In this document: in pieces, positions 473 through 63,927 of the stretch | Layout of the letters: each line of letters begins with the position of its first letter | How positions within the stretch are numbered: position 1 is the first letter of the stretch | Made by a program: the position numbers and the translations under genes | NCBI GenBank assembly: GCA_012295275.1 | Contig: CM022679.1 | Coordinates: 19,654,342 to 19,718,341, forward strand | Direction: 5' to 3' | Length of the DNA: 64,000 nt | From: Chrysomallon squamiferum | Lineage: Eukaryota > Mollusca > Gastropoda > Neomphalida > Peltospiridae | The notes under the pieces: generated by a model | What the model saw: the letters and a program-made list of their open reading frames with translations, nothing else | What the model was told of the DNA's origin: nothing | Databases searched by the model: none

Positions 473-658
473 GTGCGAGTGGTGGCAGCAGATGGAGGTG
501 AGCCAGCGAGATCTGCCACAGCTCTTGTGTTTGTCACAGTCCTGAGAAACTTTGAGGCTCCTGTCTGGTCCCAGCAGACCTACACATCCAGAATACCAGA
601 AACAACATCTGTACTGGACAAAGTGCTAACTGTCAAAGCTGTTGATGGAGATCCCAGG
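473..658 (+). CDS. Exon 1, linker exon (type 1a)
   Basis: 62 codons, phase 0/0. Begins [11 protein letters not shown] (end of a repeat whose start lies outside the window), linker L-R-N-F-E-A-P-V-W, x-E-x site I-P-E-T, and A-V-D-G-D. The P-V-W-S-Q...I-P-E-T stretch recurs in exon 56. Donor AGG|gtatat. Next intron 301 bp, T-rich with poly-T runs near 747-763 and 810-822. Confidence 0.9.
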
Positions 659-3600
659 GTATATGTTGTATAAATAATAAATTAATTTTATAAATATTTC
701 ATCTGTATATGAGATATATATTATTTGTTGTTATTATTATTATTATTTTTTTTTTTTTTTTTTGAAGATTTTAGATTAAATTCTAAATTACTAAAATATT
801 CTTTTTAATTTTTTTTTTTTTTAATAATTTGTATTTCAAATTATATTCAAAATTTGTTGTTTTCACTGTCTTTTTTCAAACTATTATCAGACTTACAAAG
901 AAGAAATCATGAATCATCATTGCTTTCACAATATCAGTGTTTTCTCTGTTTATTTCTAGCCTCCAAACAATGATGTATATTATCATTTAAATGGAAGTGA
1001 TGTGTCTCTTTTCTTCTTTGAAATTGACAAAATAAAAGGTGCAATTAAAATCAGACGATCTCTGACCCTAGATAAATCAAGACCAAACCAGTATGAAGTG
1101 AGTATTTTTAATCATTTTTTAATCCAATCTAGTCTAACTAAATTTGAAAGTCTTGGAGTTAGAAATAATGAGAAATTATAGATAAAGTAAATTTTGTTTT
1201 TGTCTTGTTTATGTTTTATTGTAGTTATCTCTTTTAGCAACAAATAAAGAAACCAGTTAATTCAATCTCACCTGATTGCAATTTGTTTTCATGTTTATGC
1301 TATAGATTTGAAATCATAAGTAAATAGAGTTTAATATTTTATGTCATTTTATTCTGTTTTATTGATTAAACATGAAGTTGTAACTAATTTCTGTCCAGTC
1401 TAACTGAGTTTTGACTGTTTCTCCAGTTCACTGTTAGAGCTACAGACGGTGGGACTCCCTCACTGACCTCATCAATCAACATCCCTGTGAGGATCCAGGT
1501 GTACAGAAACAACCAGGCACCCAAGTTCACCAGAGAACACTATCAGCAAATCATCCAGGAAGGAATAAAGTCAACAGATAGCTTGGTTACACTAAAGGCT
1601 GAGGATAATGACCCTGATGTTAGATTATTAATAATAAAGTGTTATTAATATTTGTCATGTAATAAAAAATCAAGCTTACAATTAAAAAAAAAAAGCACTT
1701 CTTTATAATGGTTTCAGATTTGGAAATGTAAAGTAATTTTTGCATGAAATGATATCAGTTGTTTGAGATATGTAGTCTCAGTGCAGGCATTTTTCAGACT
1801 TACGTAAGCATTGATTTAAATAGTGTGGCTTTATCTGTCAACAAAGTTTTTGAATTAGTTAAATTGTACCAATATTTTTATTTTTATTTTTTATCATTAA
1901 GAAGATGGATATTTGCTTATAGTGTCTGTTTAATTCAGCTTGACTTCAGTCAGATAACATATTCTATTGACGGCCCAGACACTGTTCTCAACTTGTTTTC
2001 CATCAACAATAAAGGCATCATCCATGCATTGGATGCAGCAGCAGCAGAAACCATTAATATGGGATCAGAGACAAAATATAATGTAAAGCTTCTTTTCATA
2101 CTAGATTTTATTTCTTTTTATAAGAAAATTCATATATTAACCACACATCACTACAAATGACAGATTGTAGACCTTAGAATAACAAAATGCAGCATATAAC
2201 AAGTATACATTTTACATTATATTTGCCAATGATATTTAATTTGTTACCTTTGACAGTCACAAATATATACATATTACTTTATTTTTGCCAGTTGGAATAT
2301 ATTTATTTCATTTTCTGTGTCAGTCACAGATTTATATGTTTTATTCTATCTTTGCTAATACATATTTTTCAAAATGTCTGTGATTTCAGATTTATGCCCG
2401 AGCTGCTGACAAGGGTGATCCTCCTCTCTATGATGTGTGTCTTGTTGAGCTGAGTGTCAATCACAATCTCAACTCTCCAGTAATAGACCCACTGACATAC
2501 AATCAAACAGTATTTGAAACTATGCAGATTGGAAAGCCTATAACAACAATTAGAGCATCTGACAGTGACAGACTGGCAAGTATTTTTCAACTATTAAATG
2601 TTTAGAATTAGTTTCTCAGATACAGTATGTTTAAAATTGACCAGTGATATCTCAAATGTTTGTTTAAAATTAACACTTCAGCTGACATTTTGTTTGGTTT
2701 TATTTACCATTGAAATTTGTGGCATTATTTCTGCAAGTTCAGAATTTAATTTTTTTTTGTTGTAATTTTAAATAATTCTGCTCATATTATGATGATGACA
2801 AATGTAATGATGAAAAAAAAAATGTTACTGTGCACTGGTGTCTTCAGTAATACTATTTTAAAAACTAAAATCATTTGTTAGATAAATTTTATTAAATGAT
2901 TTCTGTTTCTGGTGTATTAAATGTTAAAGATTAATAATTTGTTTTAGAGTCCTGATAACAATATTTTCTACACTCTGACTGGTTCTGCCAAAGTCAAAGA
3001 CTTTTTTCAAATAAATGAAAAATCTGGCAAAATTTCCATTAGGAAAAGTTTGCTTGAAGACCAGTCTCCAGATAATTCTAAATATTTTGTAAGTTTTTAA
3101 ATATTAATTCCTAAATAAATAAAACTAGTCATTTAATTATTGCTTTGTTTCAGTTCAAACATTTTTTATTATTCTAGTTTGATTACATATTGCGTTTTTC
3201 TAACATAAGAATATTTATTTTAATTTTATGAAGAAAGGTATTTATTTCTTCTTAAAATATTTCTAGCTTTTATTTTACAAATATATAATTATTATAATGA
3301 AGAACATTTGAATTATTTCTGAAAACATTAAGGTTGTGATTAGATGTACAGATTTTCAGTAATATTTATTTTAGACAATAATTAATTTAAAGGTAACCTG
3401 ATTAAAAAATCTATCTGAAGATTTGGTGCCAGAAAATGAATTTTATTTTCTTTGAGTTACAACTATAATCATCCATCCATTACGGTTAATAATCTATTAT
3501 CATTAATTTGTTTTTTTAAACTTACAGATGCAAGTAATTGCCACTGATAAAGGTTTGATTCAGATGACATCAGACCAAATGGCTTCAGTGACAATTAATG

Positions 3601-8027: not shown

Positions 8028-8101
<74 letters not shown>

Positions 8102-10132: not shown

Positions 10133-10167
<35 letters not shown>

Positions 10168-13100
10168 TTAATTTATCTCATACCTCTTATATGAAGCTTA
10201 TTTCTGAATTTATCTATTTGTTGTAGGTCCGACTGGAGGCCAGGGATGAAGGCATACCTAATAAAGTTGCCATCAAAGTTCTCACAATTATCGTGAAAGA
10301 AATTTTCTAGCTCCTGAATTTTCAAGTTCTTCTTATGAAAAAACAATACTTGAAAGCCATCCAGTGGCATCAAAGGTACTCACAGTGTTTGCAGAGGATG
10401 GGGATCTTACTGTGAGTTTTATCTGCCTTTTATTGTCATTACTAAGTAAACATCTGTAGCAAATTAACAGAAAGAAAAAGGTGTTCTTACTTAACAGTAA
10501 AAACATTATTACAAAAATTTATTATTATTACATTTAACCTATTTTATTTAAAATATTTAACAAATACTTACTTTTATTTACTGTATAAATATTTAATAAA
10601 AATGTATTTACCTTTATTAAAATCATTTTACTAATAATTATTTTTATTATATTTAAAGTATTTTGCAAATACATAATTTATTTACTGTATTATATTTAAT
10701 AAAAATTTATTTTGTATTATATTTAACACATTTAACAAATATTTATTACTGTTATGTCTCTCAGTCTCCAAACAGAGATTTGCAGTACTATGTAGATGGA
10801 AGCAATGACAGGTTCATGATTGTGGCTCACACTGGCGTAATCAAATTGAGACGATCTCTTGTAGGAGAATCAGAAGCATTTTATTCTGTGAGTTTTAAAT
10901 GCACATAATTTTAATATATTATATTATACAGCAGTAATAGACTTCCCATATTGTAACCACTAAACCCACTCAGAAACAAACTGTCTGTACTTAGAAGAAA
11001 TAACATTGTAACAACATCTTTTCATCATGATAACATTGTGATACAAAGTATTAAAGTAAATGTTAATAATCTTTTACAATAATAACTTGTTATACAGTTA
11101 ATACCTTTTAACAACTTAGTAACATTTTCTTGCAAATACAATAAAATGTTAAAAAGCTGAGACAAATGTTTTTTTTTTTTTTTTCAGCTCACTGTTTATG
11201 CAGAATATAATATTTTACTGAATTTTTCGATTCATTGTTTATGCAAAACATAATATTTTAATGATTTTGTTCAGTTCATTGTTTATACTGAAGATAATAT
11301 TTTATTGATTTGTTTTTGTTTTGTTTTTTCAGTTCACTATTTATGCAGAAGATAATATTTTATTGATTTTTTTTCAGTTCAATGTTTATGCAGAAGATAA
11401 TATTTTATTGTTTTTTTCAGTTCTATGTTTATGCAGAAGATAATATTTTATTGGTTTTTTAGTTCAATGTTTATGCAGAAGATAATATTTTACTGATTTT
11501 TTTCAGTCCACTGTTTATGCAGAAGATATAGTTTATTTTTTTTTCAGTCCACTGTTTATGCAGAAGATATAGTTTATTTATTTTTCAGTTCAGTGTTTAT
11601 GCAGAAGATAATATTCTATTAATTTTTTCAGTTCGGTGTTTATGCAGAAAATAATATTCTATTGGCTTTTTCAGTTCAGTATTTATGCAGAAGATAATAT
11701 TCTATTGACTTTTCAGTTCAGTGATTATGCAGAAGATAATATTCTATTGACTTTTCAGTTCAGTGATTATGCAGAAGATAATATTCTATTGACTTTTCAG
11801 TTCAGTGTTTATGCAGAAGATAATATTCTATTGACTTTTCAGTTCAGTGTTTATGCAGAAGATCTTGGTGAGCCTCCACTGAGGAGTGAACTCGTACCTG
11901 TAACCATTAACGTTACTCGCAATCTGAATGCTCCACATTTCCAGAATGAGCCGTACACAACTTCTGTGAAAGCTGATGTAGCTCCTGGCTTTGATATTTT
12001 CAAAGTGGAAGCTACAGATAAGGACCTACAGGTACATTTAACATTTGATAATTGAAATATAAAATAATATATTTGAATAATTAAAGATATAAAGTGTTCA
12101 TCTGAATAGTAAAAATTACTGTTTATAAATAATAATAATTACTTCTGAAAATTATGTCTTCCATGAAACAACACAGGAAACAATTTGAGAATAATAGTTT
12201 TTTGTTTATTTTGTACTTAACAAGTTTGTCCTGTGTCTTTACTCCGAAACAGTATTATAAACAAAATGTTTTTATAATTATTGTTGTTGATTTTTCTGAA
12301 GAGAAAACTCTAACTTGTCCAGTTAGACCATCTATAATTATCAGATGTATAATTATCAAACTTGTAATAAGATATTAGTGAATAATCAATGAAAATGTTA
12401 TGTATTTACATTTTCCAGGTCCCTTTCAATAAAATGACTTATGATATCATAGGAGATGATAGTGCTGTTGATTTTTTCCACATTGACAGTGATTTGGGAC
12501 TCATAACATTGAAACAGTCCATGCAATCACATCCAGCAGAGTATTACCAAGTATGTATATTATAACAGACAGTTTGTAATGTATTTAAATTACATTTTTC
12601 AGTCTCAGGCACACATACACACACTCTATCAGTGTATCTCAGAAATCTATTGAAATCATTAGAACTTTAAAAACTTGTCCCACTAAACTTATTTTATTTT
12701 TTTTTTTTTTTTTAAAGATTCGAGTGAGAGTAAGAGATGGAGGAAGACCCAGTTTGTTTGCTGTGACACTTGTCACAGTCAATGTCACACGCAACTTAAT
12801 GAGACCACGTTTTGACAAAATAATTTACAGTCCAAGAATACTGGAGATTCACAAGTTAGGAGTTGTCTTTCAGTCCATGGTGGCTCATGACTTTGACACT
12901 TTTGTAAGTATCACCAACTGCTACTTTCTTTTACTTAATCTTAGTTTTGCTATTTTCAACTTGAATATTTGTGATTATAACTCACTGTTATGTATCACAT
13001 TCGTTTTCTTAATTTACTCATGATTGTTGTTTAAGCCAGTATAGAGAAATGTAATATTTGTTTCAGCCTCCTAACAACAAAATAGAGTTTAACCTAACTG

Positions 13101-13593: not shown

Positions 13594-13632
<39 letters not shown>

Positions 13633-19600: not shown

Positions 19601-20676
19601 ATTTAGTGGCATTGTTGTGGTTTTTATCACTGCAATGAATTTTTTTAATATTGTTTCAAATGTCTTATTCTTTCAGCATAAAATAGAATTTACACTGGAG
19701 AGTGCTGATCCACTAAGCTGCAAGGAATTTTTTATGATATATTCCACAACTGGCCAGATTGTGTTGATTCACCCACTCACCCAGTCTGTCTTCACGGGCT
19801 GCAGGGTAATACTAACATTTCACAGTGTTCTTTAGTTTATAAAATTATGGTTAATTTATATATATATTTTTAAGTTAATAGTATTTTTATATATCAAATT
19901 TCAAACAGACACTTTAGATAAAATCAGATGCAAATGCTTAAAAAAAAATTATATATATGTGTATATAGCTTTATTTTTTTAATTTTTTTTAAATTAAAAT
20001 ATTTTCATCTCTTACAAGAAGATAAAATACACAGTTATGTTTAAAAGAAATCATTTTATAAAAAAAAATCATAAGTAATTACCTTGCCAAAATTCATTAT
20101 TTTTTGTCTATAGCATGTTTAGAGGCACAGTATAGTTCATGCTACCTTAGGTAACAAACAACCCATTGAAATGTATGTTTAATCTGATTCAGGAACTTTT
20201 AATGTATGTTTGTCCTTCTTTCTATGAAAATATTTGAAAACTCACTTATTTTTTACTGTGTCAATTAATATAACAAATTGTTATGGTTGGTTTTACCCTT
20301 AGATGAACCATATTGCAACATTATAAGTAAACTATTATTTTATAGCATATTTCTTATTCCATGAAAATAATGTTCATTCTTATGTAAAGTAGATAAAATA
20401 TTTCAATTTTATATGATATTTCAAACATAGATAACTAAATGTCAGTACATACTGGTTATTTTTCAGTTCACTGCTGCTGCCACTGATGTTGCTAATCCTC
20501 CCAGAAAGAGTGCAGAGCAAGCCACAGTTTTGATTTCTGTTGTGAGAAATAACTACACTCCAGTCTTTAAAGGACCGTATTCCAGTGACATTCCAGAAAA
20601 CACAACACTCGGAACCTCAGTTCTCACAGTGCTGGCAGTTGATGATGATCTTGTAAGTCTGACTGAATCAGTTATG

Positions 20677-20721
<45 letters not shown>

Positions 20722-23700: not shown

Positions 23701-25537
23701 GAAGACACTGCCACTGTTGTAGTTGATGTTACAAGGAATTTGTTCAAGCCAGTCATTAGATCTCATGAATACAACATTAATATACTGGAAACACAGCAGT
23801 TTGGTGTGGCTATAGTCACTATTGAAGCCAGTGACAGTGATCAAAACGTAACTGTTTATTATTATCCATTTAAAATATAAAATGTAAAACTTAATAATTA
23901 TTTAAAATAATATAACTTTTTAGACAGATATTTTTTAATATATTGTCAGATAGATATATAATAATATCTATGATGGAAACCGTAAAATAACAAATAGCCA
24001 AATGAAAATATTTATAGAATAAAGATTAAAATAACTTAATAGAACCTGACTGAATATTCTTCATAAATTATAAATATATCAGTCAATTTTTGTTAAATGT
24101 TCCTGATGTACCAATGTCAAGATAAAATTATTAAAATGAATTTATCTTTCTTTATGAAATTTTCAGCCACCATACAACAAACTAGTATACAAACTGTTAG
24201 GAAATAGTTTGTTTAAAGAATATTTCAAAATTGACCCTTACCTTGGAGACCTGTACTTGTGGAAAGATCTTACACTGACCTCTGTGGCTGACCAGTTTGA
24301 AGGTCAGGTTGAAGTGTGTGACGGTGCTGTGTCACCGCTGTGTTCAGATGTAACAGCTAACGTAACTGTAACAGTGATTCGAAATCGCCATGTACCTCAC
24401 TTCGTAAACCTGCCTTACAACCAAGACTTGCAGCAGTCGTTTGGGGTGGGAACCAGCGTACTGACAGCTACTGCCATTGATGAAGATGACCCAGTAAGAT
24501 GGGGTTTTGTACAGAAAATGTTTATTTTAAACTTTCAGATAACAAACTTTGATTTATTTCTACTGGGAAATATGTGATTTAGAAGAATGTTTGTGTCTTT
24601 ACGTGTACTTTATTAAAGGTAACACTACAAAAGACTTTAAGTTAAAAATTATTTCTGAACTTAAAATATAATATCACTGTGTAAAATATCATTATAAAAT
24701 GGAAGGGAAATTCTTCTTTGTTAATTGGCCAAGTAAAACAAATTATAAGTTATTAACCCATCTCAAATCTTTAATATTTTAAAATTAAATTAATATATTG
24801 ATTTAATTTTTAACTATTTCCTTTTCTAGACAACGCCTTTTGGGAAGATCAAATACCGTCTGATTGGAGATGGGTTTTCTCCTCACTTCTTCAATGTCAG
24901 CGAAATGAGTGGATTGGTTGAGATTAGTGAAAACTTGGCACAGACATCCATAAATGAATACCAGGTGTGGTTTTAGCTTAATATTACATCTTACTGGGCT
25001 GTATCTTGCAACTACGTATTACAAGTGAAATGAAAAATGCACCTGATTTAATACACATATTATAATTTAGTGATGTATGATAGTTTGAAACAAAACAAAC
25101 ATTAAATGTTTATGAAAAGATTTTCATGTTTGTTATCATTTTGTCAATTTTAAATTGTTGACATAATTAATAATAATTAGATCAACATTAAAATATGATT
25201 GATGCTTTTCTTTTAATACATTACTCTTCAATTACTTAATCTTATCTGCAGCTTAGAATTGAGGCTTGTGACTTAGGAAATTTGTGTAACACAACTGTAG
25301 CAACTGTTACCATAACAACAAACTTCCAGCCTCCAGTGTTTGTTCCTTCAAGATACATGGCAACTGTCTTGGAAACCATTTCACTTGGTGATGTCGTAGT
25401 TGATGTTAATGCTACTGACAGAGATCTCACTGTAAGATACTCCTGTTTTCATTACAGTTTTAAAACTATATTGAATATGAAAAGTAATATTTATAAATAT
25501 ATATTTTTGTTTATAATAAATTTATGTGTCATTTTAT

Positions 25538-25591
<54 letters not shown>

Positions 25592-27300: not shown

Positions 27301-27331
<31 letters not shown>

Positions 27332-36893: not shown

Positions 36894-36942
<49 letters not shown>

Positions 36943-37110
36943 GTCATCTGTAGACATGTTTCAAATATTTCAGTATCTCAGAAGTGTTAAAGTTTGTGAT
37001 TTAATATTTGTTATATCTTGGAAAAAAAATTGCATAATTTAAATGTTCTCTTCTTTAGATATTTGCTGAATAATTAAAATACTGGAATATCTTAAAGATA
37101 TTATTATTAC

Positions 37111-37194
<84 letters not shown>

Positions 37195-37495: not shown

Positions 37496-37555
<60 letters not shown>

Positions 37556-43500: not shown

Positions 43501-46500
43501 TGTAGCAAAGCGGTTCTATGGCATTCATCCCTTTACTGGAAACATTTTTGTCAAACAGTCACTTTTATCTGGAAATCAAGATTCTGATACTGTATGTTAC
43601 TGAGAAAATATTTCTAAAATTTTAATAATGTACCTGTCTGTTAAACAACACATTTGAAAAAAACCACACAAAAACATTTGTTTTTTATGCTGTCATTAGA
43701 TTGTTTAATAAGAGAATTCAAAAGTGTCTGAATTATGGAAGGACATTCCTTTGTGTTTTGTTTTAAAATATTCTTATAAAGAGAGATAAACAGTATTTAG
43801 TATTCAATTTAGTTTCATTTATTCTAGGTTAATGTTCAGTTTTTGTTTATTGTGATAATATCTTTAGATAATATTTTTTCTAGAAGCTATTTTTTTATAT
43901 AATATATGTGGAAACATTTATAATTAACGTTTGCTATATAAAATCTGTGTATAATAACTGAAATTGTAAACCAGGAGCTGAAACTATAATATATTCTTAT
44001 TTTTCAGATTAAATTACAAGCAACTGATGACAGAATCCCTGAAAAAACTGGGATGGCTCTTGTTATGGTATCTATCAAGAGGGACCACTATTCTCCTGAG
44101 TTTTTAAGAGAACCTTACAACAAAACCATCTTTTCTACAGATAAAGTAGGAATGACTGTTATCCAGCTGTCAGCTACCGACAAAGATATAAGAGTTAGTG
44201 AATACAGCTGTTTTATCTTTCATTTCATTTCACTTATCTGTTCTTTTAACCAGTTTCCTCCATTTTACCCTGTTTTCCACTTCACTCTGTCTTTTTGTGA
44301 ACACCAAGCCTGTCCGTTCCTTTCTGTCTGTCTCATCGTTTCACCCCTTTCATGGTGGCTCACAAAATGGTTGTAGCTAAATCTGATGAAAAGTAGACAC
44401 ACCACTATAGTTTACATCGGTTTATGATCTTTCATCATCTCCATATAACTGTTTAACTTGAAACAACAGTTATTATGACATTATTCATAAAATTATTATT
44501 ATTATTATTATTAAAACAAGTGTCTTCAAGAATAGGTTTCTTTATAATAATATGTTGATTATGAAGATTCTATTTTACTTGTTTTTATTTTATATAAAAT
44601 TTAATTTCAGGGCACACTGTTATACAAAGCAGTTGGTAAATATCCTGCTCCAACTTTCTTCTCAGTGCACAATACATCAGGAAAGGTGACAATCACAGAG
44701 AAAGTCACCCAGGATACACTAGAAAGAGATTTGTACGAGGTAACATAATCTATTTTAATTAAAATGTTAACTGATGTTAGTACATGTGCATTAAAATGAA
44801 GTATTGTGTGTAATCATTATCTAATGCACATATAAATAAATTTTTACTTTCAGCTGCATGTTGTAGTCTATGATGATTTCTACCCTACAAATGTAGCAAC
44901 ATCCACTGTTACAGTCCATGTTATCAGAAATCCCTCACAGCCATCTTGTTCTCCTCAAGCCATCTCTGCAGTGATAACCGAAAGCTCTCCAGTTGGTTAT
45001 GTGGTTGGTGATGTCAATGCGACAGATGCTGATGGGGTGAGTTTAATTATTTAGACTTTATCAAGACTATTGCATATTCAAATACTTTAGTCTAGACCTG
45101 AGTGCTACAGCAGTTACTGAGATCCACCACTACTCATTCAATGTTCCTTCAGTAAGTATAAAAAGGAAGTTGACAAGCCTGTGAGTAAGCTTGAATATGT
45201 TACATAAAAATTATGTCCTGTTTAGTTCAAATGTTAAGTGATATGAGTTCTACATTGTACATGTTGTTTGTTTTTTTAATTATTTTTCTTACATTTATAT
45301 TTTCATTTCCATCTTTATATATTTTAATATGAATTTATTTTCTATTCTCTTATAGATTTAAATAATACAAATTTATTGGTACCTTTTGAAAAACTGTATA
45401 ACTGATCTTGAATGTTATTTATATTACATCATAATATGGAATACTTATCTTTAGGAATGATTGACATTAAAACACATTTATGAACAAGATATTCTTTTAT
45501 GTTACTTTAATTTTTCTTAATTTATTTTAATTTTGTCTGTATTATTATTATTAATTTTGTAAATTAATTTCTAAGTTATCTTTTTATGTTACATTTAACT
45601 TTCAGGATATATTAACCTACAGGATTGACTCAAAAGATGAAGACACATTTAAATTTTTCTTTGTTGATTCCTCAAATGGTCAGATTGTGTTAAAACTACC
45701 TTTGTCCAAAGATGTTACTAGAAAATTCTTCTCAGTAAGTATTTTAATGAAGAGTTGATCCTAGAGAACTGCTTGAAAAATCTTTTAAAATAGTTCACAA
45801 AACAGCTATGTAGTAAATATAATAACATATTATTGTTTTTTGTTTTTTTTATTTTATGAAAAACTAAATGTATTTGCAAACAAACATTTCTAAATTAAAA
45901 AAAAAAATAGCATAAAACAGAATTATACAATTTTTTTTACAACATTTTTATCACATGATCAAATTAAATGTTTAGAACAGGTAAAAATAATTGGTTTAAC
46001 CTTAAGTAACCAAATAAATAAAAGTAAAATGATCATTTTTTTAAAAATAAAATGTTTTTTTTCCCAGTTCAGTGTCAAAGCCAGTGATGGTGGTTCTCCA
46101 ATTCCTAAAGTCTGTTCTACGAGTGTGGCTGTTTCAGTGACACAAGATGAACCTCCATTTTTCATGCGTCTTCCCTACAAAAGAGACATCTTTGAAACCA
46201 TTGAACCTGGGTCCACCATATATGTTGTCAGTGCAGCAGATAAAGACCAAAGTGTATGTTTTAATAATTACATTTTTCACTAGTTCTCAATTATTTACAA
46301 ATGTATTCTAATAATGTTCAGGCAGACTCAGATCTCAACAACTGAGGGACATGACTTTGAACATTATTAATATTTTTTTTGGAAACAATTTTTATATTTG
46401 TATGTTTGTTTTGAAACACTGAAATAAAAATATTTTAAATGAAACTTTAAACATCTCAGGAACTTGATAGAAATATAATGTTCATTTCATTAGTTTAATG

Positions 46501-49285
46501 TTTGTTATTCATTTATTTTTGAGTCTAATAAGAATTTTAAAACTAAAATCTATATTTCCTGTTGACAGGGTTCTTTAGTGTATAATTTAATTGGAGATTA
46601 CAGAGCTCCATATTTCTTCAGTATCAACAACAACACTGGGGAGATCTCTGTAGTTCACAGCATCAAGAAGGACTATGTTGACAAATACACAGTTAGTCTC
46701 ACTTCTTTATATATAACATTCAAATATTAACTCAAACAGTCTGTGTTAAATATTGTAGTTCTTCAAATCTTAATAAATACATATTTTCAAATTTTTACAT
46801 AATCTATGATTAATTATTTTTTTTTAAATATATGTATATGTATATTAATTTGCTTGTTTTTTAATGTTTTATATAGATCCATATATACATGCTTTTTAAT
46901 CAGTCGAACCCTTTTGCAAAGCAAATAGATATTTGTTTTTGAATATTTATGATGTTTTATTTTCTATTTAGCTTCGAGTGATTGCTTATGATTCTGGTTT
47001 TCCTGAAAATACGGCAACAGCCTCTGTAGAACTGAATGTCATACGTAACCTGGGTGTTCCAGAGTGGAGCATGCTCAGATGTGAAACTACCATAGAGGAA
47101 CTCACTAAAATAGGAACCATTGTCCTCAATGTCACTGCAGTAGATTCAGACATGGTCAGTACTTGTTTAACTAGCATTCTTTCTTTTTCTCTTAAATAAC
47201 AAACAAAGATGTCATTGGAAGATGTTTAGTAGTTGTATTTAATTTTCACAAGTATATTATTTATATCTACAGCTAATTAAATATAGGATTTTTTATTTTT
47301 TGAATCTCATAAATATATATTTAAAAATATTTAAAAATTATTTAAGGCATGTCTTTCAATATTTTTTATAATAAAAACATATATTCAATGTATTTGAATA
47401 CTTCTAGTCAAAGTTTTACAATATATTTGATTTGACAGGACACAATTATTTACTCGCTTGGTGACACTTTCCAAACAACAAATCTCAGATTCTTTGCAAT
47501 CAACTCCTACACTGGCAGCATCAGTGTAATAAAGGAACTAACACATGACATGCAGTCAAGTGAACAGTATTTGGTTAGTATCACAAAAAGAAACTTTCTT
47601 AATATTGATGCAACTAGACTAAGATTTTACCTTTTAATTTTATACTTAATTTTTTTTTTTTTTAACAATATAACTAAATGATTTTCAGAGGAGATTATAG
47701 CAGAGATATTGACAATAGTTCATCTTCCTGATACAGAACTATGTGAACAGAGCTTTAAAAACGTTTATACAATGTTAGCGATATATTTTCTGTACCATGA
47801 AGTTTTTTTCAAAATTTCAGCTGAAGGTTGAAGCCAGTGATCAAAGAAGAAAGGCTCATACTGCATCAACAACGTGCACCATCAACGTTTTGAGAAACAA
47901 AGACAAACCACAGTTCAGGAATACACCTTATCAGCTGAAAATCTCAGAAAACACAGCAGTCAACACAACAGTGCTTTCTGTTACTGCCAACGATGATGAC
48001 TTGAGAGTAAGTTTTAAACCTCTCTTTCTATCTCTTTCTAGCCCTTCTTCTTATATTTATTTATTTATTTACTTATTTATTTATTTATTTACTTAAATGT
48101 TGAAGGGCATTGTTAAATAAAACATTTCTTCTAGTTATGTTGTATTTTTATTTTTGTTTAACCATGTTTTGTTTACATTTGTTATTGTTCTATTTTTTTT
48201 TTAATAGAAAACATCAGTGTTCAGTCATTTTAAAAAGTCATTCACATGACACTCATTATTTTGTTTCATGATATAAAAATCACATTGACTTGATTTATTT
48301 TGAAGGGTGAAGTCATGTATGAAGTAATAGGTGAAAATCTGGCTCCTTTCTTCTTCCGAGTTGATCCGAATCCTCTGTCAGAGGGTGTGAAGATTGTACT
48401 GCAAACAAGTTTACTCACTGTTAAATCAGCAACACAGCTTACTGTGAGTTCTTTTGTCATTTAATTTATATCACTGTTTCACAAAAAAAACACCCCAAAA
48501 ACAACAAAAAACCCACTTTGATCATTTTTCCTTTAAATACTTTAGTCAAAATGTAAAGCAAAAAAAAAAAAAAAAAGATATTGGATACATTTTTGTCAAA
48601 ATTAGCAAAGATTTATTCCTTATTCTTTATATAACAAAAGATCATGTCTGTTTTATTTCATTTTGCTAGCTTGCATCTTAAAATTACATTATTTTACACA
48701 TAGATATTTTAGTAAATAAATTTGATTAAACACTATGTAATTATCTTCTAATCATTTTTAAAAATTTATTTTAAATAAAGCATTTATTTGACAAATATCA
48801 GATTGATAAAGTAAGGTAATTAATGTATAAATGAAGAAGTACAAAATATTACACTGATTTTGAAGGTGATATTTTTCTTATAATTGTCTTTATCCGTCCT
48901 TGTGATTTTTTTTTAAAAACAAATTTTATCTAAAATATCATAAACCATACATACTTATCTGACTTTACAGTTAGTTCTAAAAGCTTTTGACAGTGTCTAT
49001 CCTGAGGACTATGTGTCAGAAAAGGTTGAGATTGAAATAGCTAGAAATGAATATGGCCCAGTGTTCACTGACACTCCATACCAAACTTCAGTTGAAGAGG
49101 AGGCAGGCATTGGCACATCTGTCATAGTTGTTAATGCCACAGACAAGAATATAAATGTAAGTAGCACAGCATTTCATTACTACAATAATTTGTAAAAGAT
49201 AATTCATAGAACTATAACTTATTCATTGTGTTTCTAAATCTAGAACTGTTCTTATGATAAGGTTCTTTTTATTTTATTATTTTCC

Positions 49286-49319
<34 letters not shown>

Positions 49320-52300
49320 ACCATTATTTTTAATATACTATCAATTTATTTATTATTATTGTTAATACTATTAATATTAGTAGTTGTAGTAGTGGAATAG
49401 TAATAGTAGTAGTTGTTGTGATGTTGTTGTTATTATTATTATATTCCTTTTTAATACATTAATATTTTTATTTAAAATTGTTATTACATTTGTTATTTAT
49501 TTTTTAAGGTTTTATTTTTTTTATTATTAATTAATTTATTTTATTAAAATTATACAGCTTGAAAAAGAAAAAAATTAACATATTTATTTTTTGGTTACAT
49601 ATATCTTTCATACACGTACTTAATATTTTTACACTGTATTCAATAAATTAAAATTTTAATGTATATGCAATGTTTTTAAATATTTGACAGGACCACATTG
49701 AGTTCTTTGCAGAGGGAGAATCAGACACAGCTGACTTGTTCAGACTTGATCCAGACACTGGATTAATCACAGTGGCCAAACCTTTAATAAAGCTGAAAAA
49801 GTCCCTCTATAAAGTAATTTAACATTTTAAAATTACATTATGTCTGTCAGCTTATATTATGTAATATATAAAAATAACATAATTTGTTTAATATTAATTG
49901 CTCACTTTTCAAGAAAATTGTATAAAAATTACTGATTAGCCTAGTGTCATATAAACTATACAGAATTTAAAAAGTGAATACAGATTTTAATAGAGATTAT
50001 TCACATTTAGTAATTTAATTATGTACAATTTCAAAATCAAATCCTATGAGGAAGAATACAGTTTTGTCCTTTTATTAAATTTCAGTAAACTCGTTTTAGT
50101 TTATTTTTTATTGTGGAATTCATACTAGTACTGCATAATCTATTTTATTATTTATAATAAATAAATTACTTTTAAAAATTATTAGAGTAAATTTAACGTA
50201 CAGGAAATACCAATAACTAATACCTGTGAGATGAGTGAATAGTACTGCTTCTTGTTAGTCTTACATGCTGTTTTTACACAGATGATTGTCAATGCTACTG
50301 ACAATGGCAGTCCTAAACGCTGGGCAGCCTCTGAGGTTTCTATAACAGTGATCAGAGATGAGTTTGCTCCAAAATTCACAGAGCTCTATCAGACACAGAT
50401 CAGTGAAAATTCACCTTTGAGAACCAATGTTTTGCAAGTGAGAGCTTATGATGGAGACCTTAAGGTAAATATTGACATGGTTACTAATTTATTTTAATTA
50501 TTTTAAATATTTAATAGTTTGTAATAAAGATTTTAATTTATTGGCAAATTTTCATGGCAGTTTCTACACAGAAATCAATCTAAGAAAACAGGAACATAAA
50601 ATTTAAAAAGTGAGGCAAAAAAAACAACAACTAAAATGTTGTGTTCAGTGTTCTTTATAGTTTGATATGATGTCTAGTTTATAACTTAGTATTTCCTTTC
50701 TGTGAAAAGAATCATTTAAAGTATCTCTTCTCAGAAAAATATAAAATATCAGCAGTGACGATTCTAAGAAAGACACAGCATCACTGAGTTTATTCTCTCT
50801 GGTAAATAAATTTAACAAATGTATTGAGTATATTACTGTAATAAATGCTAACATAAAAAATGTATATATTCTATCAAAAGGTGTGTATCTGTTGAGGTAC
50901 TATTTTCAGGGAAAGATGCAGTACATAAATACTGGAGAATACCCTGCTGACAGTTTTTTTCAAATAGACCAGTCATCTGGTCAGGTAGTTCTTCAACGCA
51001 ACCTGAAACAAGACTATGCCAGAAGAAAACAGTATCTGGTACAGCTTGATTATTTTAAAATGCCATAAACTAACAATTTTAGACATTTATTACAAAACAC
51101 TGAATGTAATCTTAAACAGAACTCTTCTAGAAGAAAATATTCTTCAATAAATATAACACCAGCAGATTAAGACAAGAATGAAAAGTTAGATCTGTAGAAA
51201 ACCACGTTTATGTAACACTATACCTGAAAGACGCAATACCAAATTAATTATTTTTAGAAATCTTTGCCAAGATCAAATAACTAACTGTTATTTCAGATAA
51301 ATATAAGAGATAAATAAAAATTTAATTTAATTACAGTTTGTTGTTGAGGCATATGACAGCATGAGGCCCAACAACAGAGGTACAGCAACAGTGGAAATCA
51401 GTGTTATCCGCAACCCAACCCCCCCTCTCTGGATGTCACCGTTTTATGCTATTACAATTGCTGAAGACTATCCCTTGTTTACTCCAGTGATAAATGTCAC
51501 AGCAGAAGATCAGGATCCTGGAGTAAGTAGCCACAAATAATCTAAAGTTAAAAACAGACAATTTGTTTTAATTTTTATTTTGTTTTTTGTTTGATTTCCT
51601 TAAAGACATTTAAGATACTTGAACTTTTTTTAATTTAAAATTTTCTTCATTATCTAACATATGGTTTCTCTATTGTAGTAAAGATCTCTGACTTTTTATT
51701 AGTACTGAAACTGTTTACTTCACATTCAGTAACCTTATAACTTTTATGAAATCAAATAGTTAAAGTACAGAGTGAAGATCAATTTATACAGAACAGTCAT
51801 TAGCATTAATAGTGTAGAGACTGTGTTACTTTTTTATTATTAAACATAATGAGCTGACCATGAGGCTGTGACACAATAAGTACTTTTTAGAGGAAGTAAC
51901 TGCCCTGCAGACTGCAGATATTTTAGTCTCTGATTCTAATTGTTTTCATCTATAAGGCAGCTGATATTACTATGAACCAGTTAGCTGTTTTATTCAGTGG
52001 AAATAATACTTTTCAGGACACTATCAGATACATGATTGATAAAGAATCAGTTGAGAGGGGTACAAGTTCAGGACCTGCCCAGTATTTCTATGTGGACTCA
52101 GATACTGGAATCATTGGTCTCAAAAAAACAGTGCTTGGAACGAACATCAGAGAATTTTTAGTAAGGAATAAAATTATATTTTTAGAAGCTTTTGTTAGTA
52201 TACTTTACATTCTCTAATTTACTTTAAAGACATAAAATCATGTCTTGTTAGTTTCATCTTTTTACCATTCCAGCCAATGCCTCACAGTTCCTTATCAAAG

Positions 52301-55300
52301 ACTGTACTGATGTGAGAATTGCCACTGGATAAATATAATAGTTACTTCTTAAAATGTTTGTTTCCAAAATACCCATACTCTCATGTCTTCTAGACAGTGA
52401 CAAAATATTAATCAGTGTTGTAATAAAATAATGTGTAAACTTGTATCTCTGCAGCTGATAATAAAAGCCTGTGACACTGGTATACCTCAGAAATGTGCTG
52501 ACACGAAGGTGAGAGTTCTGGTCAGTACTGAGGGGTTTGCTCCTGACTGGGTGGACACACCTTACACTGTGACAATCAATGAGACAGCAACAGTAGGAAA
52601 TGTTCTTTTTGTCATCAAGGCCATTGATCGAGATCTAAAGGTAATTATTTTTATTTTTATTTTTATTTTACCTTTAATCTGAAAAATTTCATTCCTTTGA
52701 AAGGTTATTAATTGTTATTTTTTTAAGAATTTGTTTGTGCAATATTAATAAGCATAAAAAACTTTTTTTTTCGAATGTACTATTTAATTTTAATATTGAC
52801 TCAAATTTATTTTTAAAAATACATTTATCTAGCAAGTTTATAAAAGTGAAAAAAACTGCTCACCAGTAATATTTATACAATTTAATGTCAAAACATAATG
52901 CCTAATTTTTAAAATCATCATTTAGTCACATAATAAAAAATTTTTAATTAGATACTTTAAACAGAAATATTAAGAATTTATAAATCTAAATTTATTAAAG
53001 TTTTATAGTTTAAGGAATCAGTTGTGTTAAAAGTAAATTTCTGTGTTATATTTACATAATGCGTTAGGTTGGGAGTTACGTTCAGTATGAATTTGTTGAT
53101 CCAAGACCTGGCTTCTTTGGACTGGATGAACAGAGTGGTGAGATAACTCTGGACAGTAGTCTTTTGAGTGACATCCGCACTCAGTACTCTGTGAGTGCAT
53201 TCTTTACATGAAGTATTTGCCAGTTTTTATTTTTAAAATGTGTTTTAATTTTTGTCTTGCATGCTATTTTGAATGAATACACCAATAAATCTAATTTATT
53301 AATCATAAAAAATTAAAAAATTAAATAAATATTAATAATTTATTATCCAGCTGATTTATTAACTGAAAAGACGGTGTGATCACACTAAAATGGATATGTT
53401 GGTATATATATATTTGTGTGCACATCACAGATTGAACATACTTACTTACAATGACTGTGGGTTTATCTTCTGTTTTAGTTCAAAGTCATGGCTTTTGATC
53501 ACCAGGAACCAAGACGAAAGGTAACGACAGATGTAACAATACATGTGAGACGTAACATCCACTCTCCTGTTTTCCTGCACCGGACATACACACAGACTGT
53601 CTCCGAGTACACACGTCCTGGAAGTCTGCTTGTCAACACAACAGCCACTGATGATGATGGGGTAAAACACAAAGAATTATAGACAATTATGTATATGTCA
53701 TGTTTGTTCATTTATTCACTCTTTATTTAGTTACCTTTGTTCATTCAGTTGTTTTAGTAATTAATTATTTTTATTATTAATTCATTCATTTCTTATTGAT
53801 TGACTTTGGGTCGTTTAAAGTGATTTACATTTTGTTTTTCTTAGGCAAGATTTTTATTTCAATTTTTTTCAATTTTTTTTATTCATTTATATAATAATAA
53901 TAATAATCATATTTATTATTTATTTTTTTATTTTTTTATTTTTTTTGTCTGCAGGATGAAGTCAGATATTCATTTTTGAATCCTTCTGAAAAAGTAAAAG
54001 AAAAGTTTTTCATTGATTCTAGAAGTGGAAATATTTACCTGAAATCATCACTGGAGAAGACACCAACAACACTTTTCAGTGTAAGTTACACACTCAACTT
54101 CTGTTACAGTGGACGGAATATTACAGTATTATCAAAATGTCTTTATCTGAACTTCATCATAAAAATCAGACTAAATTTATTATTATAACTTTACTTTAAT
54201 CCATTGCACATGCAGATAGTACAAACTTAATTCATAGTGATACAGAAAATGTTGTTAACCTAATAATGTAATTTGATAAACACTGCAAAGACACAGAATG
54301 TGTGGATTGAGGAACAATCTATGCCCATCCACTGACTGATGTTTTTGTTTCTTTTTCATTTCCACCAAAATAATTGTAACTTCTTCATCCATCTCCAGGA
54401 TATAATGAATGAAAAATATAAACTTTTACTGTTGATATTCCACAGATTACTGTCAAAGCTGTTGATCAAAAAACTGTCAATGAGAAAACTGCCACAGCTT
54501 CAGTGACTGTCATCGTCAACCTTGATGCCAGCCCAAGCTTCACACTGCCGTCATACAGCAGACAGATAGATGACAAATTTCCTCAGGGTGGCCTTGTAGT
54601 TCAAACCACTGCAGTAGATTCAGATTTAAAGGTAGAATGCAAACTTAATATTTATCACAGTTTACTGAATGTTTTTAAAAACTGACAAGTTATATTGTTT
54701 AGAGATTATAATATGCCAGTTTTATGAGGTAACAAGAAAGTAAAAGAGTCTAATCTATGCAGTGAACTCCTAGTAAAATAGAAACTTATTTTTTAAATAA
54801 TAAATAATACATAAATACTGAAAATATCAAAACATTTCAGAACTTAAGATTCCTTTTTTCTTCTTTTTTTTGTTACTTAAAATGAAAAGAATTATATTAC
54901 ATAAAATATATTTTGACCACTTAAATAGGGTGAAATCCAGTATGAATCTGATGGAGTTTACCCAGCTGAGATGTTTTTTGCTATCAACAGAACTTCAGGT
55001 GGAGTCTATCTTATTCACAGCATTCAGAATGATCCCCTTAGACTACAGACGTACAAGGTAGCCAGCATAATTATAACACTTTATTTATTTATTTCTTTTC
55101 ATATGTCAACAATTTATATCTGCAGTGCTTTTTATTTTTTTATTATTTTTACAAATTTATTTTCTGTTAATTTTCCAGAAAGAGTAGGGGATTTTTTTGT
55201 TTTTTTTATAAAGAATGAAATTCAAATTATTAATATCTGAATTGTTTATTTATTTATTTACTTATTTTTGTTTTCAGCTGAAAATCATTGCTTTTGACAG

Positions 55301-58300
55301 TAAATATCCAAACCGACAGGCTACGTCTGAGGTTATTATTTCAGTTGTGAGAGATTCCAGTATTCCAATGTTTGTTCCAGACTCTAGCTACACTCCACTT
55401 GTTCAGGAATCAAAGCCTCTTGGATTTATAGTTGAAAACATCACAGCAGTACATAATAAAAAGGTTTGTATCCTATGTAGACTATAAACAAATATTTCCA
55501 ATTCCAGCTATATTATATGCATTAAAGAAATATACACACTCACACTTATGATGACAGTTTAAAAAACGTAATAATAATAACAAAAATACTCTTTTATAGT
55601 GACGCAAAATGTATTTACAGTTTCAGCAAATGTCCTACAAAGACTGAGTATTTAAACATTCTCTCCTATCAGGAAGAGTAAAGATTCATTATAAAATTAA
55701 TAATACTCAAATATATAAAAATGTCTGACACATAAAAGGTTTAATACAAAATAGTATTTTTTAATTTTTATTTATTTTTTAAAATTTATTTATTTATTTG
55801 TTTCAGTAGTTAAAACAAATTCATGTTGCTCAGAAATATCTTTACAAAACCTTCCTATCTTTTTTCATCTTCTTTCTTTTTTATCTTCATGATTAGAAAT
55901 AGACAAAGAACTGTAAGTAAGTTTCAGTATGTGTGTCATTTCAGGTGACTTATTCTCTGGTGCAGTCTTCATCTGAAGTGAGGAGATTGTTTTACTTGGA
56001 TCCTGAATCTGGTCTCCTACTCATCAGACAACCACTGACATCAGCAAAATCTGACTTGTACAGTGTGAGTATTTTTAATTATTACCTTAGAGCGTCCTTA
56101 TTAAAAACATTTTGTTCACTTCTGACAAAAATCAACAAAATGTTTTCAGTTTTTTGTTGGTTTTATTATTTTCATTTCTGTTTGTTAGTATTCAACAAAG
56201 TATTTTTGTAAATACACATTATTTGGTGCAGTATTAAAAAGTATTCTGAGATGTATGTTGATTTCACTGTTTTGATTTCAGATGGTGGTCATGGCTAAAG
56301 ACAAATATGAAATCTCTGCCAATGCCACGGTGGCAGTGCGGCTGTCTCGGGAGCCAGGAGACATGACGCCAGTGTTTGACAATAAATCTTATGATGTGAA
56401 TATTGTCGTCACACATGAAGTGAACACTCCATTTATGACAGTCTCTGCTCACGACCCTGATCTGAAGGTTTTTCTTGTAGTTTTCATCAACTGCTTGAAT
56501 ATTATTATATTAATAAAAAAATTAATCTCATATGTATCAGTACATAACAGTGTTGCTGCAGAGAAAAAAGTCTGCTTTATCATTTCTTCTTTTTCATATT
56601 ATCACTGTTATTAATTATTATTATTATTATTATTATTATACAGAAAACATGTCTGTGTTAAATAAAGTATTTATTTTTTTATCACTAATTATTTAAATAT
56701 TTTAATTTAAAATGTTCTAATCTTGTATTGACTTTGTAGCAAAAACTTAAATAAATAATAGTGATAGTGAAGAAACTGACTATAAAACTACTGTTCTTTG
56801 AAAAGGGAAGGATTGAGTACAGGATAGACGGAGTGTACCCAGCCTCAGATTCCTTCAAGGTTGAAAAGACAACTGGAAGTATTATACTGACAAAAAGTCT
56901 GCTTGAAAATGAACCCCAGAGATCTCAGTACACTGTATGTGACTTATTAGTGATTTGCAATTATATTAATTTGCTCTATCTTGAAAAGAACTATTACATG
57001 AATAATTACTGTGATTTCTGTAAAATAAAGCTGCATATATTTTATTGTTTTAATAACACTTTATTCCAAAAGAAAACAAAATATAAAAGTAAAGTCCTAA
57101 CTCTGTTCCTGTAAATTCTGAACAAAATGGCTATTACATCAATTATAAATTTGTTCTTCATTATGTTATTAAAGTATTTTTTTACATAAATAACTAAATA
57201 TTGGTGAAGATATTCTATTAATAAAAATATATTCTTATTCTAAAAAACACATAACTGAGCTTTTATTTAATTTTTTAAAACAGTGTTGTTGTTTTTTTCA
57301 GTTAAATATCTTGGCATATGACACTGCCAGACCAGATGTGGTTGGTCGGACTAATGTTAATGTGCTTGTTAATTTGAATCCTCATGCTCCCGAGTTTGAG
57401 GAAAAAACTACTTACTTTAAAACCATCTTTGAAACCCAGGCAGTTAGCAGTATTGTTCTGCAACTCAATGCTACAGATGCAGATGGGGTAAGTGTTCTTA
57501 CAGACTTTCTGAAGAGATATGAGTTTACTGTATAATTTTTACTACTTCTTTTATTAAATTAAAAAGATAGGTACTTAATAAATAACCTTCAGGGTTTTAT
57601 TGAAACAGTTTTAAATTTCAGTCATTCCTATTTTTCAAAAACTGTAATTCAAATAGTTCCATTTTAGAGGGGTTTTCTTAATTATTAATAAAGCATAGTT
57701 TGTGTGTGTGTGTGTGTGTTAGTAAATTAAAACTGAAAAAATACTCTAATAGTTGTGTTGTTATTTCAGGATGACTTGCAGTTCTATATAAAGAGTGATG
57801 CAGGAGGAAGACAGGCTATGAAGTATTTTTTTCTCAGTGGCGTCACTGGAATCCTGTATGTCCACAACAACCTACAGCAGTCTGCTCCACTCTCAGCATT
57901 CAAGGTTTGTTCCTGCAATTTTTCTAATAAGTATCATTTCATTTTATTTCTAAGGTTATAATCTGTAAGAGATTGTGAAAAGAAGATGGTCTATGAAAAC
58001 TGATGTTACAAGTAATCTGTTAATTATTTTAAACATTAGCACAAACACCATAAATATAATTTTTAAGAACCTTAGGTATATCTTTAAAAATAATATAAGC
58101 TTTCTCTCAGAGAAACCTAATGTTAATATTAATTTCAAATTATAATTACTGTGTATAGTTCACATCTGAAATGAACAAGATTAGCTAATAGTTAGTTGAG
58201 TTATGTCTGGTTAATATCAGATATGATGGGGATCCACTATCAACTATATCAGATTTAAAAAATTACAGTTGAAATGATGAAGATCCACTATAAACTAGTT

Positions 58301-61300
58301 TAGTTGTGTGTAGTTCATAGCTGGGTTGAGTAAGATACACGTAAACTAGTTGGGTTAGGTGTAGTTCACAGCTGAAATGATGAAGATGCACTGGAAACTA
58401 GTTGAGTTAGGTGTAGTTCTCAGGTAAGGTGATAAAGATCCACTGTAAACTAGTTAAGTTAGGTATAGCTTATAGCTGAAATGAGGGAGATTAATTCAGA
58501 ATTAATTAACTTTCTGAACAGTTCACAGTTGAAGTGAAAGATAATGGCACACCTCCACTAAGCAGTGTGACAGAGGTTGTGGTGTCTGTACAGCGAGACC
58601 AAGGCCCTCCCCATTTCCCTCAGCAGCTCTACACAGCAAGCGTCCCAGAAAACACCAGAGTGGACAGCATCACTCCCTTCATTTCTGTCCATGCCATCGA
58701 CGGAGACCTGCAGGTGAGGCCTCTCAGTTAACCACTGTTACTTACTGGGTGCAGATTTAGATGTCAGTATCTGTTTTTAAACTTATATATTTTATCATTA
58801 AACACTGCTTTACACACTGATGGAGATTATGTAAGATTCTGAGAGCCAAGGTTTAAGTCAATTTTAAAAAGTCTGTTTAATAAAACAAACATTTTATTTT
58901 TATTTGCACATCATTAGTGAAAATAAAAAATTAAGAGATGCTTATCAATCACTGCTTTTTTCAGAATAATATAATATTTCCAAAAATAAAATAAAACTTG
59001 TACATATTTTCTTAATGAGATTCTGTGTTGTCTAATTAATTATGATAATAGTAATTTTTCCCAAAATGCTAAATTATCTAAGGGTTCTGGTTATTTCAAT
59101 TTTAGTGAAGCCCACTTTAAGTTTAGTGAAATATAATTAAAATAATATTTTTAAAACTGTTTTACAGGGTAGTCTCAAGTACAAAATAACTGGAGATGGA
59201 AAGGCTCTTGCTTTCTTCAGAATTGATGAGAATACAGGAGACATCTTTGTCAAAAATTCCTTGACACTGACAGCAGATTCAAAGATTGAGGTAAAATATT
59301 GCAGTTTTATTAAATTATTATTATGGTCTCAAAGTAAATATTTTAAGATATCTATTATGCAATTCTTTTCTTAACTTAAAGAGATTATATTTTAAAATTA
59401 TTATCTAATAAAAACACATATAATAAATATTATTTTTATTATTGTCTTTAGACGTTCAGTAAATAAAACTTCATTTTTGATAATATAAAATATTATTATT
59501 CTGTTTTATTTTCAGATTGAAGTGGCAGCCTTTGATGATGTATATCCAGATGTACTTAGTCAAGTATTAGTGCAAGTTAATATAATACACAATCCAAACA
59601 CACCTACATTTGTCAGAGAGTCCTACACAGCCAGTGTCTATGAGTTTGCCTCTCCTGGAACTAAAGTCATCACAGTACGAGCTAAAGATGATGATGGGGT
59701 TAGTGATATTTTCTTTTTCTCTGCAGACAATTTAAAACAAATACACTCTGCTAAATAAAGTATAATTAGAAATTATTTCATATTTATTTTGTGCTTTAAA
59801 TATTTATTTTTTTATTATTTATTTTTGGAATAAATATTAAATAAAAAAATTTAATGGTGCAGAAAATTTAATAAACTTTATGACTTCTTAAGATGAAGTA
59901 GATGGAAAATATGTTATTTTTTTATTTTATGTAAATGTACTTATAATATGAACATATTGGAAAAGAAAATGGGGTACACATGGTAACTTGTTTAGACTCA
60001 TTATATTCTAAACTTATTACAGATTTATATTCCATTAATACTAATAAATGTTTTGTTTGAGCAGGATGAAATGTGGTACAGGATTCTCTCAAGCACAGAA
60101 GTGACAAAGTATTTTTTCATAGATGACACGTCAGGAATAATTTACACTAAGCTGTCACTGCACCACAGCATAGAGGACCACTACACAGTACGATTTCATT
60201 CACCTAACTGATTTCACATCCTTTTATAAAACTGCATTCTTTATATAATTCCAGAATTAAAAAATACTTTTTCTAAGTTTATTACCTTTCCCAGGAAAAT
60301 GTGCTTAAGTATTAAAACAAGAAAAGAAGATTGTTTTCTTAAAAACTGAATTATTGTTTGTTCGTATGCTCTTATTTTTCTTAATATTTATTTTCAATAA
60401 AAAAAATAAAACAAAAATTGCATATTTAATTCCTTAAGTTCAGTGTTGGTTTAGATCACAACTTTTCTGTTTAAATTATGACACAATGGTTATGTTTGTA
60501 AATAATTGCACTTATAACTTGTGAAAATATGATCTGGTTAGTGATTTTGCATTGTTGTAATTATTTACCTTTATAAACATATTAAAGTTATTTTACTTAT
60601 AAGAGCTTTTTAATATGCATCTTTGTTAAAAAACATTAAATGTACTAAGTTTGTTACCAGATTCGGCTTGAAGCTTCTGACAGAAGGAAACCTCCAAAGT
60701 CAGGTTTAGCTGTTCTGCACATCTCAGTGACCAGGGACAAGCCTCCAGTGTTTGTTGCCACACCATACTTAGTTACAGTTCATGAAAAAGATCAGATTCA
60801 CAAGTCAGTTTTCACTGTACAAGCATCCGATGAAGACCTGAAGGTAAGTCATGTCACTGTGAAAAGTCAACAAATGCTGCTACTCTTTGTAAAAGTTAAA
60901 ATTTATACTGTTTAAAAATTAATTTATCAATCACTGATTTTATCAAAAGTAAAGAATAAGAAATCTTCTGTTTTGTGATCAGGGGTCACTACAGTATGAA
61001 GTTGTAGGTGACACTCCAGCTCCAAGTTTCTTCACAGTAAACTCATCATCTGGTGTTGTGTCCGTGAGAGTGGATCTAGTGAACTGCAGGAGTAGGACAT
61101 ACACAGTAAGTAACTTTATGTCTTCAGTACATCAGCTTCTGGCATCAGGTTCAAGACAAATATACTTGAAACATTTAATTTTACATGGTAATAATAGTAA
61201 ATGATTTATATAATCATACACCACCTTTGGTTTAAAGGCAAATCTTTGTTATAATAAAATAGAATGTTATTCTTTGTCATGTCTTCTGCAGTATGTTATT

Positions 61301-63927: not shown

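Follow-up and report, generated by a model that had tools for sequence, protein, structure and literature searches.

In PCDH15, one of the two cadherins of the tip link, the linker between extracellular cadherin (EC) repeats 9 and 10 is calcium-free and bent and has been proposed to give elasticity (PMC5120219); according to the authors of that report, the calcium-free linkers known at the time share no common motif. The fly homologue of PCDH15, Cad99C, forms a complex with Sans and Myosin VIIA, and a title cited in the same report states that it regulates microvillus length (PMC6031363). In one survey, PCDH15 was scored as absent from the oyster Crassostrea gigas (PMC10734073). Here we describe a cadherin gene in a 64,000-nucleotide stretch of the genome of the gastropod Chrysomallon squamiferum (assembly GCA_012295275.1, contig CM022679.1, positions 19,654,342 to 19,718,341 of the forward strand), referred to below as the window. 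The gene encodes a chain of 56 complete EC repeats joined by an unusual linker, and we consider it probable that this chain is the expanded spacer of a giant PCDH15-type (tip-link) link cadherin, a single-pass membrane protein, in a mollusc.

The longest open frame in the window has at most 199 codons, and short open frames are dense instead. The gene model came from a small dynamic-programming routine that allowed only phase-0 introns with GT/GC-AG borders and was seeded with ten exons read by eye; three exons of fewer than 10 codons were dropped, and eleven places were corrected by hand. The plus-strand model, 473..63927 of the window, has 113 exons in 114 coding pieces, one exon being split by a frameshift, with a coding total of 18,156 bases (6052 residues plus one X) and an exon GC content of 41.7%, compared with 23.9% in the rest of the window. 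Two exons encode each EC repeat: core exons are 38-49 codons long, and linker exons, of 59-67 codons, span the junction, running from the end of one repeat through the linker into the start of the following one. The 57 linker and 57 core exons, one pair of which is fused, yield 57 linkers, 56 complete repeats and two halves, in agreement with the original prediction, made from the letters of the sequence, of at least 56 repeats. Because the model allowed only phase-0 GT/GC-AG introns, the consistency of its splicing is not independent evidence; independent support comes from its unbroken collinear match, at 62-79% identity, to one homologue. This protein, the uncharacterized LOC121378881 isoform X2 of Gigantopelta aegis (7290 aa; P0128 in our numbering of database proteins), is the closest relative among the matches listed, and 54 of 54 EC triples match it in order.

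Another check is the Pfam Cadherin family (PF00028), a search proposed with the original prediction. Scans of two parts of the spliced product, covering 3832 of 6052 residues, matched it at E 3.2e-116 (10 stretches in 1110 aa) and E 3.6e-251 (26 stretches in 2722 aa), with 36 stretches passing E 0.01 individually. As a strand control, the pattern A.D.[GD] occurs 71 times on the plus strand and 3 times on the minus strand, and A.D.G.P 18 times and 0 times. The predicted fold of three homologous EC repeats of P0128 matches solved cadherins. The array and its two parts are as follows.

473..63927, plus strand: whole array of 56 complete and two half cadherin repeats, running past both window ends (gene model, Pfam, collinearity with P0128).
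473..38428, plus strand: first array part; core exons mostly open with a P-x-N-type stretch (exceptions at 16627-19805), and linkers are mostly R-N or H-N.
39004..63927, plus strand: second array part; core exons mostly open with D-x-x-x-Y or G-x-x-x-Y in alternation, and R-N linkers tend to alternate with R-D or variant linkers.

When the 57 linkers are aligned on the linker proline (position 0), their usual form is V(-7)-x-R(-5)-N/D(-4)-x-x-x-P-x-F, essentially the predicted V-x-R-N-x-x-x-P-x-F, which we call the R-N linker. Arginine stands at -5 in 42 of 57, asparagine (43) or aspartate (11) at -4, proline at 0 in 54, and phenylalanine (47) or tryptophan (6) at +2. The canonical motifs D-x-N-D-N/H-x-P and LDRE occur 0 times each in the stop-to-stop pieces of at least 30 residues in the window, as the original prediction had it, and 0 of 57 linkers is canonical; these motifs are usual in the cadherin superfamily, but membership does not depend on them. 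The predicted landmarks of the cadherin fold are present together with the Pfam match: the XEX glutamate in 41 of 57, the first and the second aspartate of DXD in 53 each, and the XDX aspartate in 55. The L-D-R-E place, earlier described as D-T or unrelated, is fairly characterized in this way, with Asp in 11/57 and Glu in 3/57 when counted at exactly the canonical distance from the following aromatic residue, and Asp in 27/55 once loop insertions are removed by profile.

We then scored the 55 junctions that have all parts inside the window. The XEX glutamate is present in 39, N/D at -4 in 52, DXD in 50 and XDX in 53, and the last three, the site-3 set, occur together in 48. Linker aspartates are found at -6 in 2 junctions and at -3 in 2, and both together in 0. 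If these residues are allotted to calcium sites 1-3 as we assume, most ligands of sites 1 and 2 appear to have been lost, and most of those of site 3 remain. Judged from the residues, "calcium-free" is probably too strong a term for the array junctions; a single ion at each of them is a more plausible guess. The claim of fewer calcium ligands per junction therefore holds for sites 1 and 2 and fails for site 3; the evidence supports a giant cadherin-like filament poorer in calcium ligands, whose stiffness may differ. A different arrangement, compatible with a PCDH15-type identity, would have junctions without any calcium, held by Arg-Glu salt bridges and packing. The loss of paired linker aspartates, the XEX glutamate count above and the frequency of R/K at -5 (40 of 55 junctions, and 488 of 547 rows from homologues) speak for it, but the retention of DXD, XDX and N/D at -4 would be difficult to account for if no metal sat at site 3, and we regard a wholly metal-free junction as unlikely.

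The array is built on a two-repeat unit. Identity between repeats alternates over lags 1 to 12, at 25.2-25.8% for odd and 28.8-30.0% for even lags; repeats of the same parity exceed those of different parity by 2.96 points, while 2000 shuffles gave a standard deviation of 0.19 and a maximum of 1.02, and the best match lies at the same parity for 49 of 56 repeats. The linker exons likewise form two classes. In class one, asparagine stands at -4 in 28/29 and the following repeat has the XEX glutamate in 26/29; in class two, N (15/28) or D (10/28) stands at -4 and the glutamate follows in 15/28. The period is present in 9 of 10 family members tested (P0142 lacks it); all five Fat proteins compared, and the one cadherin-23-like protein, are without it. 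As a unique mark of the family it was rejected, since P0144 and P0145, which have canonical linkers, also show a parity difference, with no alternation over lags 1-6 in the former and weak alternation in the latter. These two (7581 and 7180 aa) and similar proteins are giant cadherins with canonical linkers, and size alone is not special. The cadherin-23-like P0154 of Babylonia areolata (5575 aa, canonical linkers) has 49.3% identity at lag five compared with about 28% at other lags up to 6; this is a recent five-repeat amplification.

We searched the protein database three times, beginning from mollusc-type proteins and filtering by length, and obtained 233 listed proteins (including the best 120 of 557 and the best 120 of 690 matches). 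A count of linkers with one pattern separates 35 of them, with 14-63 R-N and 0-5 canonical linkers, from the remaining 198, with at most 7 R-N and 12-38 canonical linkers. All 33 of the 35 R-N proteins that carry an organism name are from molluscs (bivalves, gastropods and one octopus) among the matches listed; because the queries were of mollusc type, at most 120 matches were listed per search and a length filter was applied, this does not prove a distribution restricted to molluscs. The R-N proteins bear the database names "protocadherin Fat 4-like", "FAT4-like" or hypothetical. They include P0121 of Crassostrea and P0122 of Saccostrea, whose models lack heads. Among the best 120 of 557 and the best 120 of 690 matches, the best named non-mollusc proteins are mostly Fat proteins at 23-27% identity, and in the latter set unnamed giant cadherins rank above them; with so few R-N linkers in the other 198 proteins, none of these matches looked like an orthologue of Fat, Dachsous or CDH23 that shares the linker. 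The filament had been called undescribed. As a sequence it is not, having relatives in databases, but among the literature matches listed no paper deals with the R-N family or its linker. The family may be multi-copy and clustered, as suggested by Solemya velum P0001, P0135, P0137 and P0141 and Gigantopelta P0003 and P0128, whose entries give contigs of equal length within each species.

What the gene looks like beyond the window is suggested by these homologues. A signal-like start, judged by eye, is present in 9 of the 35 R-N proteins, and in P0124, P0126, P0131, P0133, P0135 and P0136 it is followed by a nearby Cys and, as far as about residue 1000, by canonical linkers together with LDYE-type motifs. 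For a PCDH15-type head we looked for the EC1 and EC3 cysteines and for the runs ELTPVGxT and DGDDxxP; at least one of the two head motifs occurs in 6/35 R-N homologues and in 0/198 others. Residues 115-840 of P0124 align with 89-789 of PCDH15 in one stretch (E 1.9e-49), and P0135 shares the runs VNELTPVGTT and DGDDLGP with PCDH15 residue by residue. With two-EC constructs, PCDH15 EC1-2 scored 100.1-108.8 bits and CDH23 EC1-2 82.0-90.2. Dachsous, a cadherin of 27 EC repeats with cytoplasmic motifs of its own, had only Dchs1 EC1-4 chains among the PDB matches, and these scored below PCDH15. PCDH15 EC8-10 aligns to P0135 until the first R-N linker (local residue 316 of 740-1160); that is, the R-N array begins after the repeat aligned to PCDH15 EC9. 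The head alignment (A4) used five of seven N-termini, P0131 and P0142, in which the head is incomplete, not being included.

At the other end, 15 of the 35 R-N proteins reach a membrane motif, TKSYxWW. The C-terminal order in these homologues is array, canonical linker and last EC, membrane-adjacent domain (MAD), one membrane helix (by hydropathy scan) and a short tail, which ends in TT[MIL]L in 10/15 models and contains NPxY/F in 12/15. The predicted fold of the MAD matches PCDH15 and CDH23 end to end. The C-terminal alignments comprised 14 of 15 sequences (A1, P0127 left out) and 10 of 16 (A2). EGF and LamG domains are absent from the precomputed Pfam lists of all 35 R-N proteins, and neither turned up when P0001 and P0010 were scanned with a cut-off of E 1; the window itself stops before the juxtamembrane part. 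Two proteins, P0124 and P0126, span the whole distance from signal-like start to TT[MIL]L tail. Others appear to be split: Solemya P0135 and P0001 have consecutive model numbers and contigs of equal length, and their ends abut on 3 of 5 reference proteins (for example, 2597 and 2617 of P0123), as do those of Aplysia P0132 and P0005 (for example, 3858 and 3868 of P0130). Summed lengths are about 9400 residues for the Solemya pair and about 9000 for the Aplysia pair. The Solemya pair has 43 + 39 EC-like matches, and nine homologues, fragments included, have 25-71 each.

Taken together, the homologues show a plan of a PCDH15-like head of about nine canonically linked EC repeats and then an R-N/R-D array on a two-repeat unit, and the window gene would carry the same head and the same MAD and tail. 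The head would bind to a partner carried by an adjacent cell, cilium or microvillus. The tails of CDH23 and PCDH15 are PDZ-binding, and the tail here may likewise be held by a PDZ scaffold. A cadherin repeat is about 4.5 nm long, and the array would form a spacer of about 0.25-0.37 micrometres, multiplying a pliable joint at the position of the calcium-free EC9-10 joint of vertebrate PCDH15. Each array junction would probably hold one calcium (site 3: N/D at -4, DXD, XDX) instead of three, and, as a guess, the arginine at -5 might make up for charge that was lost near XEX. A link between microvilli or cilia seems the likeliest role, because the PCDH15 homologue Cad99C regulates microvillus length and complexes with Sans and Myosin VIIA. 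A broader proposal is that molluscs kept PCDH15 as a giant of about 25 to 80 repeats, which arose through multiplication of a two-repeat unit at the calcium-free EC9-10 joint, each junction having one retained calcium site and an arginine linker; we hold this tentatively, at slightly less than an even chance.

Several observations weigh against a PCDH15-type identity or its proposed mechanism. The window includes neither head nor tail, and the P0128 model, which has no signal-like start, begins within an EC; the head proposed for the window gene is therefore taken from collinear relatives (P0128 13-500 matches P0131 737-1219 at 40%, and P0128 lacks approximately the first 720 residues relative to P0131). 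P0142 has a signal-like start and some canonical linkers without PCDH15-type motifs, while P0006 and P0007 have a signal-like start and neither a head nor head motifs. With the head profile, fish CDH23 EC1-3 (130.8 bits, in two stretches) scored slightly above PCDH15 EC1-3 (126.3, in one stretch). Over EC7-9 other cadherins match better than PCDH15, and their alignments, too, stop close to the first R-N linker. CELSR1 is top by total score in the PDB sequence searches, because many repeats add up. A profile of the MAD region alone gave two chance matches and no cadherin among PDB sequences at E up to 10; it is by its predicted fold and its position that the domain resembles PCDH15. The XEX glutamate is associated with R/K at -5 in 547 homologue rows, which are not independent (odds ratio 2.6, p 0.001), and shows no association in the window's 55 rows (p 1.0). 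Finally, the three-repeat model proposed with the original prediction, made with P0128 repeats, has the fold match given above, but at a pTM of 0.59 its junction geometry is unreliable. We rejected the inter-domain angle from this model, the rmsd being about 9-16 A for nearly all listed chains (one 25).

The databases would make this family a Fat4-type planar polarity cadherin of molluscs with diverged linkers, as the names of many matches and the predominance of Fat among the named non-mollusc proteins suggest. Fat proteins carry juxtamembrane EGF and LamG domains, according to one report (PMC9935876); 0 of 35 R-N proteins, 15 of which reach TKSYxWW, has either in its Pfam list. Five Fat controls have 17-27 canonical and 1-3 R-N linkers and no two-repeat period, and the juxtamembrane domain of the homologues is predicted to fold as a MAD; we consider a Fat4 identity very improbable. 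That the gene is a CDH23-type cadherin, the other half of the tip link, is also improbable. The fish CDH23 score favours it by a narrow margin, but PCDH15 aligns to the head along a single long stretch that includes the Cys and DGDD motifs, the two-EC bits favour PCDH15, and a canonical-linker cadherin-23-like protein already exists in the mollusc Babylonia (P0154), an argument qualified by one survey in which CDH23 was found solely in deuterostomes (PMC10734073).

Gene callers might instead have fused separate neighbouring genes for head, array and tail. Cut or split models such as the Solemya and Aplysia pairs, the headless starts of P0006 and P0007, and the wrong cadherin models that one survey describes as common in echinoderms (PMC10734073) are consistent with this. 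The head shares one model with the array in the six proteins with signal-like starts listed above, two of which are complete to TT[MIL]L, and the split models abut in the order of 3/5 reference proteins; we give fusion very little weight. A role outside link filaments, for example in the shell matrix or as a larval adhesive, might be raised by three oyster protocadherin Fat 4/Fat 4-like proteins, if they belong to the R-N family, that were proposed as calcium-binding candidates at larval settlement (PMC6337334). Such a role seems to us improbable, as the transmembrane helix and conserved tail argue for anchoring to a cell. A PCDH15-type link cadherin remains the reading we favour.

Individual exons of the gene model, with their peculiarities, are as follows.

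473..658, plus strand: first linker exon of the window (gene model).
960..1097, plus strand: first core exon of the window (gene model).
2390..2575, plus strand: linker exon, followed by the sole GC-AG intron of the model (gene model).
10227..10411, plus strand: linker exon in two frames (10227-10292 and 10295-10411), with the break just before the linker ERNFLAPEF (gene model).
11843..12031, plus strand: linker exon whose acceptor and first codons are repeated in a minisatellite upstream (gene model).
19677..19805, plus strand: core exon overlooked by the automatic model and recovered by eye (manual reading).
24167..24493, plus strand: fused core and linker exon of 109 aa, with part of an EC, the linker and the start of the next EC, the only site in the model with an intron missing (gene model).
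63335..63523, plus strand: last linker exon of the window (gene model).
63787..63927, plus strand: last core exon of the window (gene model).

The break near 10292 is either an assembly error or a real frameshift lesion in one of 113 exons. The minisatellite at 11179-11863, with a unit of about 42-43 bases, lies upstream of the exon at 11843 and holds more than 12 copies of its acceptor and initial codons, offering a row of possible acceptors. An intronic array at 30899-31586 consists of about 50 copies of the 14-base unit AACAAATTACTTAT, and other tandem arrays lie at 34564-34892 (24/48 bases) and 40952-41260 (34/64 bases). The open reading frames 36040-36639 (minus strand) and 28926-29441 (plus strand) had no Pfam match at E 0.1.

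These results bear on the way in which tip-link stiffness depends on linker calcium and on calcium-free joints. If the proposed identity is true, the array would be a natural elastic filament that repeats, many times over, the joint for which an elastic role in the tip link has been proposed, and with dozens of copies of one altered joint between canonical flanks, stiffness per junction would be directly measurable. The R-N proteins, including oyster P0121 and P0122, could be the missing mollusc PCDH15 genes under another name; the "Fat4-like" label also misleads expression studies in molluscs.

Among named systems, CELSR1 (flamingo) gives the best total PDB sequence score; CELSR proteins are seven-pass, whereas the R-N family has one membrane helix and neither EGF nor LamG. 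Fat4 and Fat1-3 resemble the window gene in size class, cadherin repeats and database name, but differ in their EGF and LamG domains, their canonical linkers and the lack of a two-repeat period. Cadherin-23, which in an anemone reaches 44 repeats (PMC3899209), differs in its canonical linkers and, in two-EC comparisons, in a less similar head. P0128 is like the window in its collinearity, R-N linkers and two-repeat period, and also has the MAD, membrane helix and tail, although its model lacks a head and has no function assigned. The homologues share with PCDH15 the head signature, the fold of the last EC and MAD, and the single membrane helix. PCDH15 has 11 EC repeats and a calcium-free linker, whereas the window alone has 56 complete repeats, tens of which share one R-N linker and keep the site-3 ligands.
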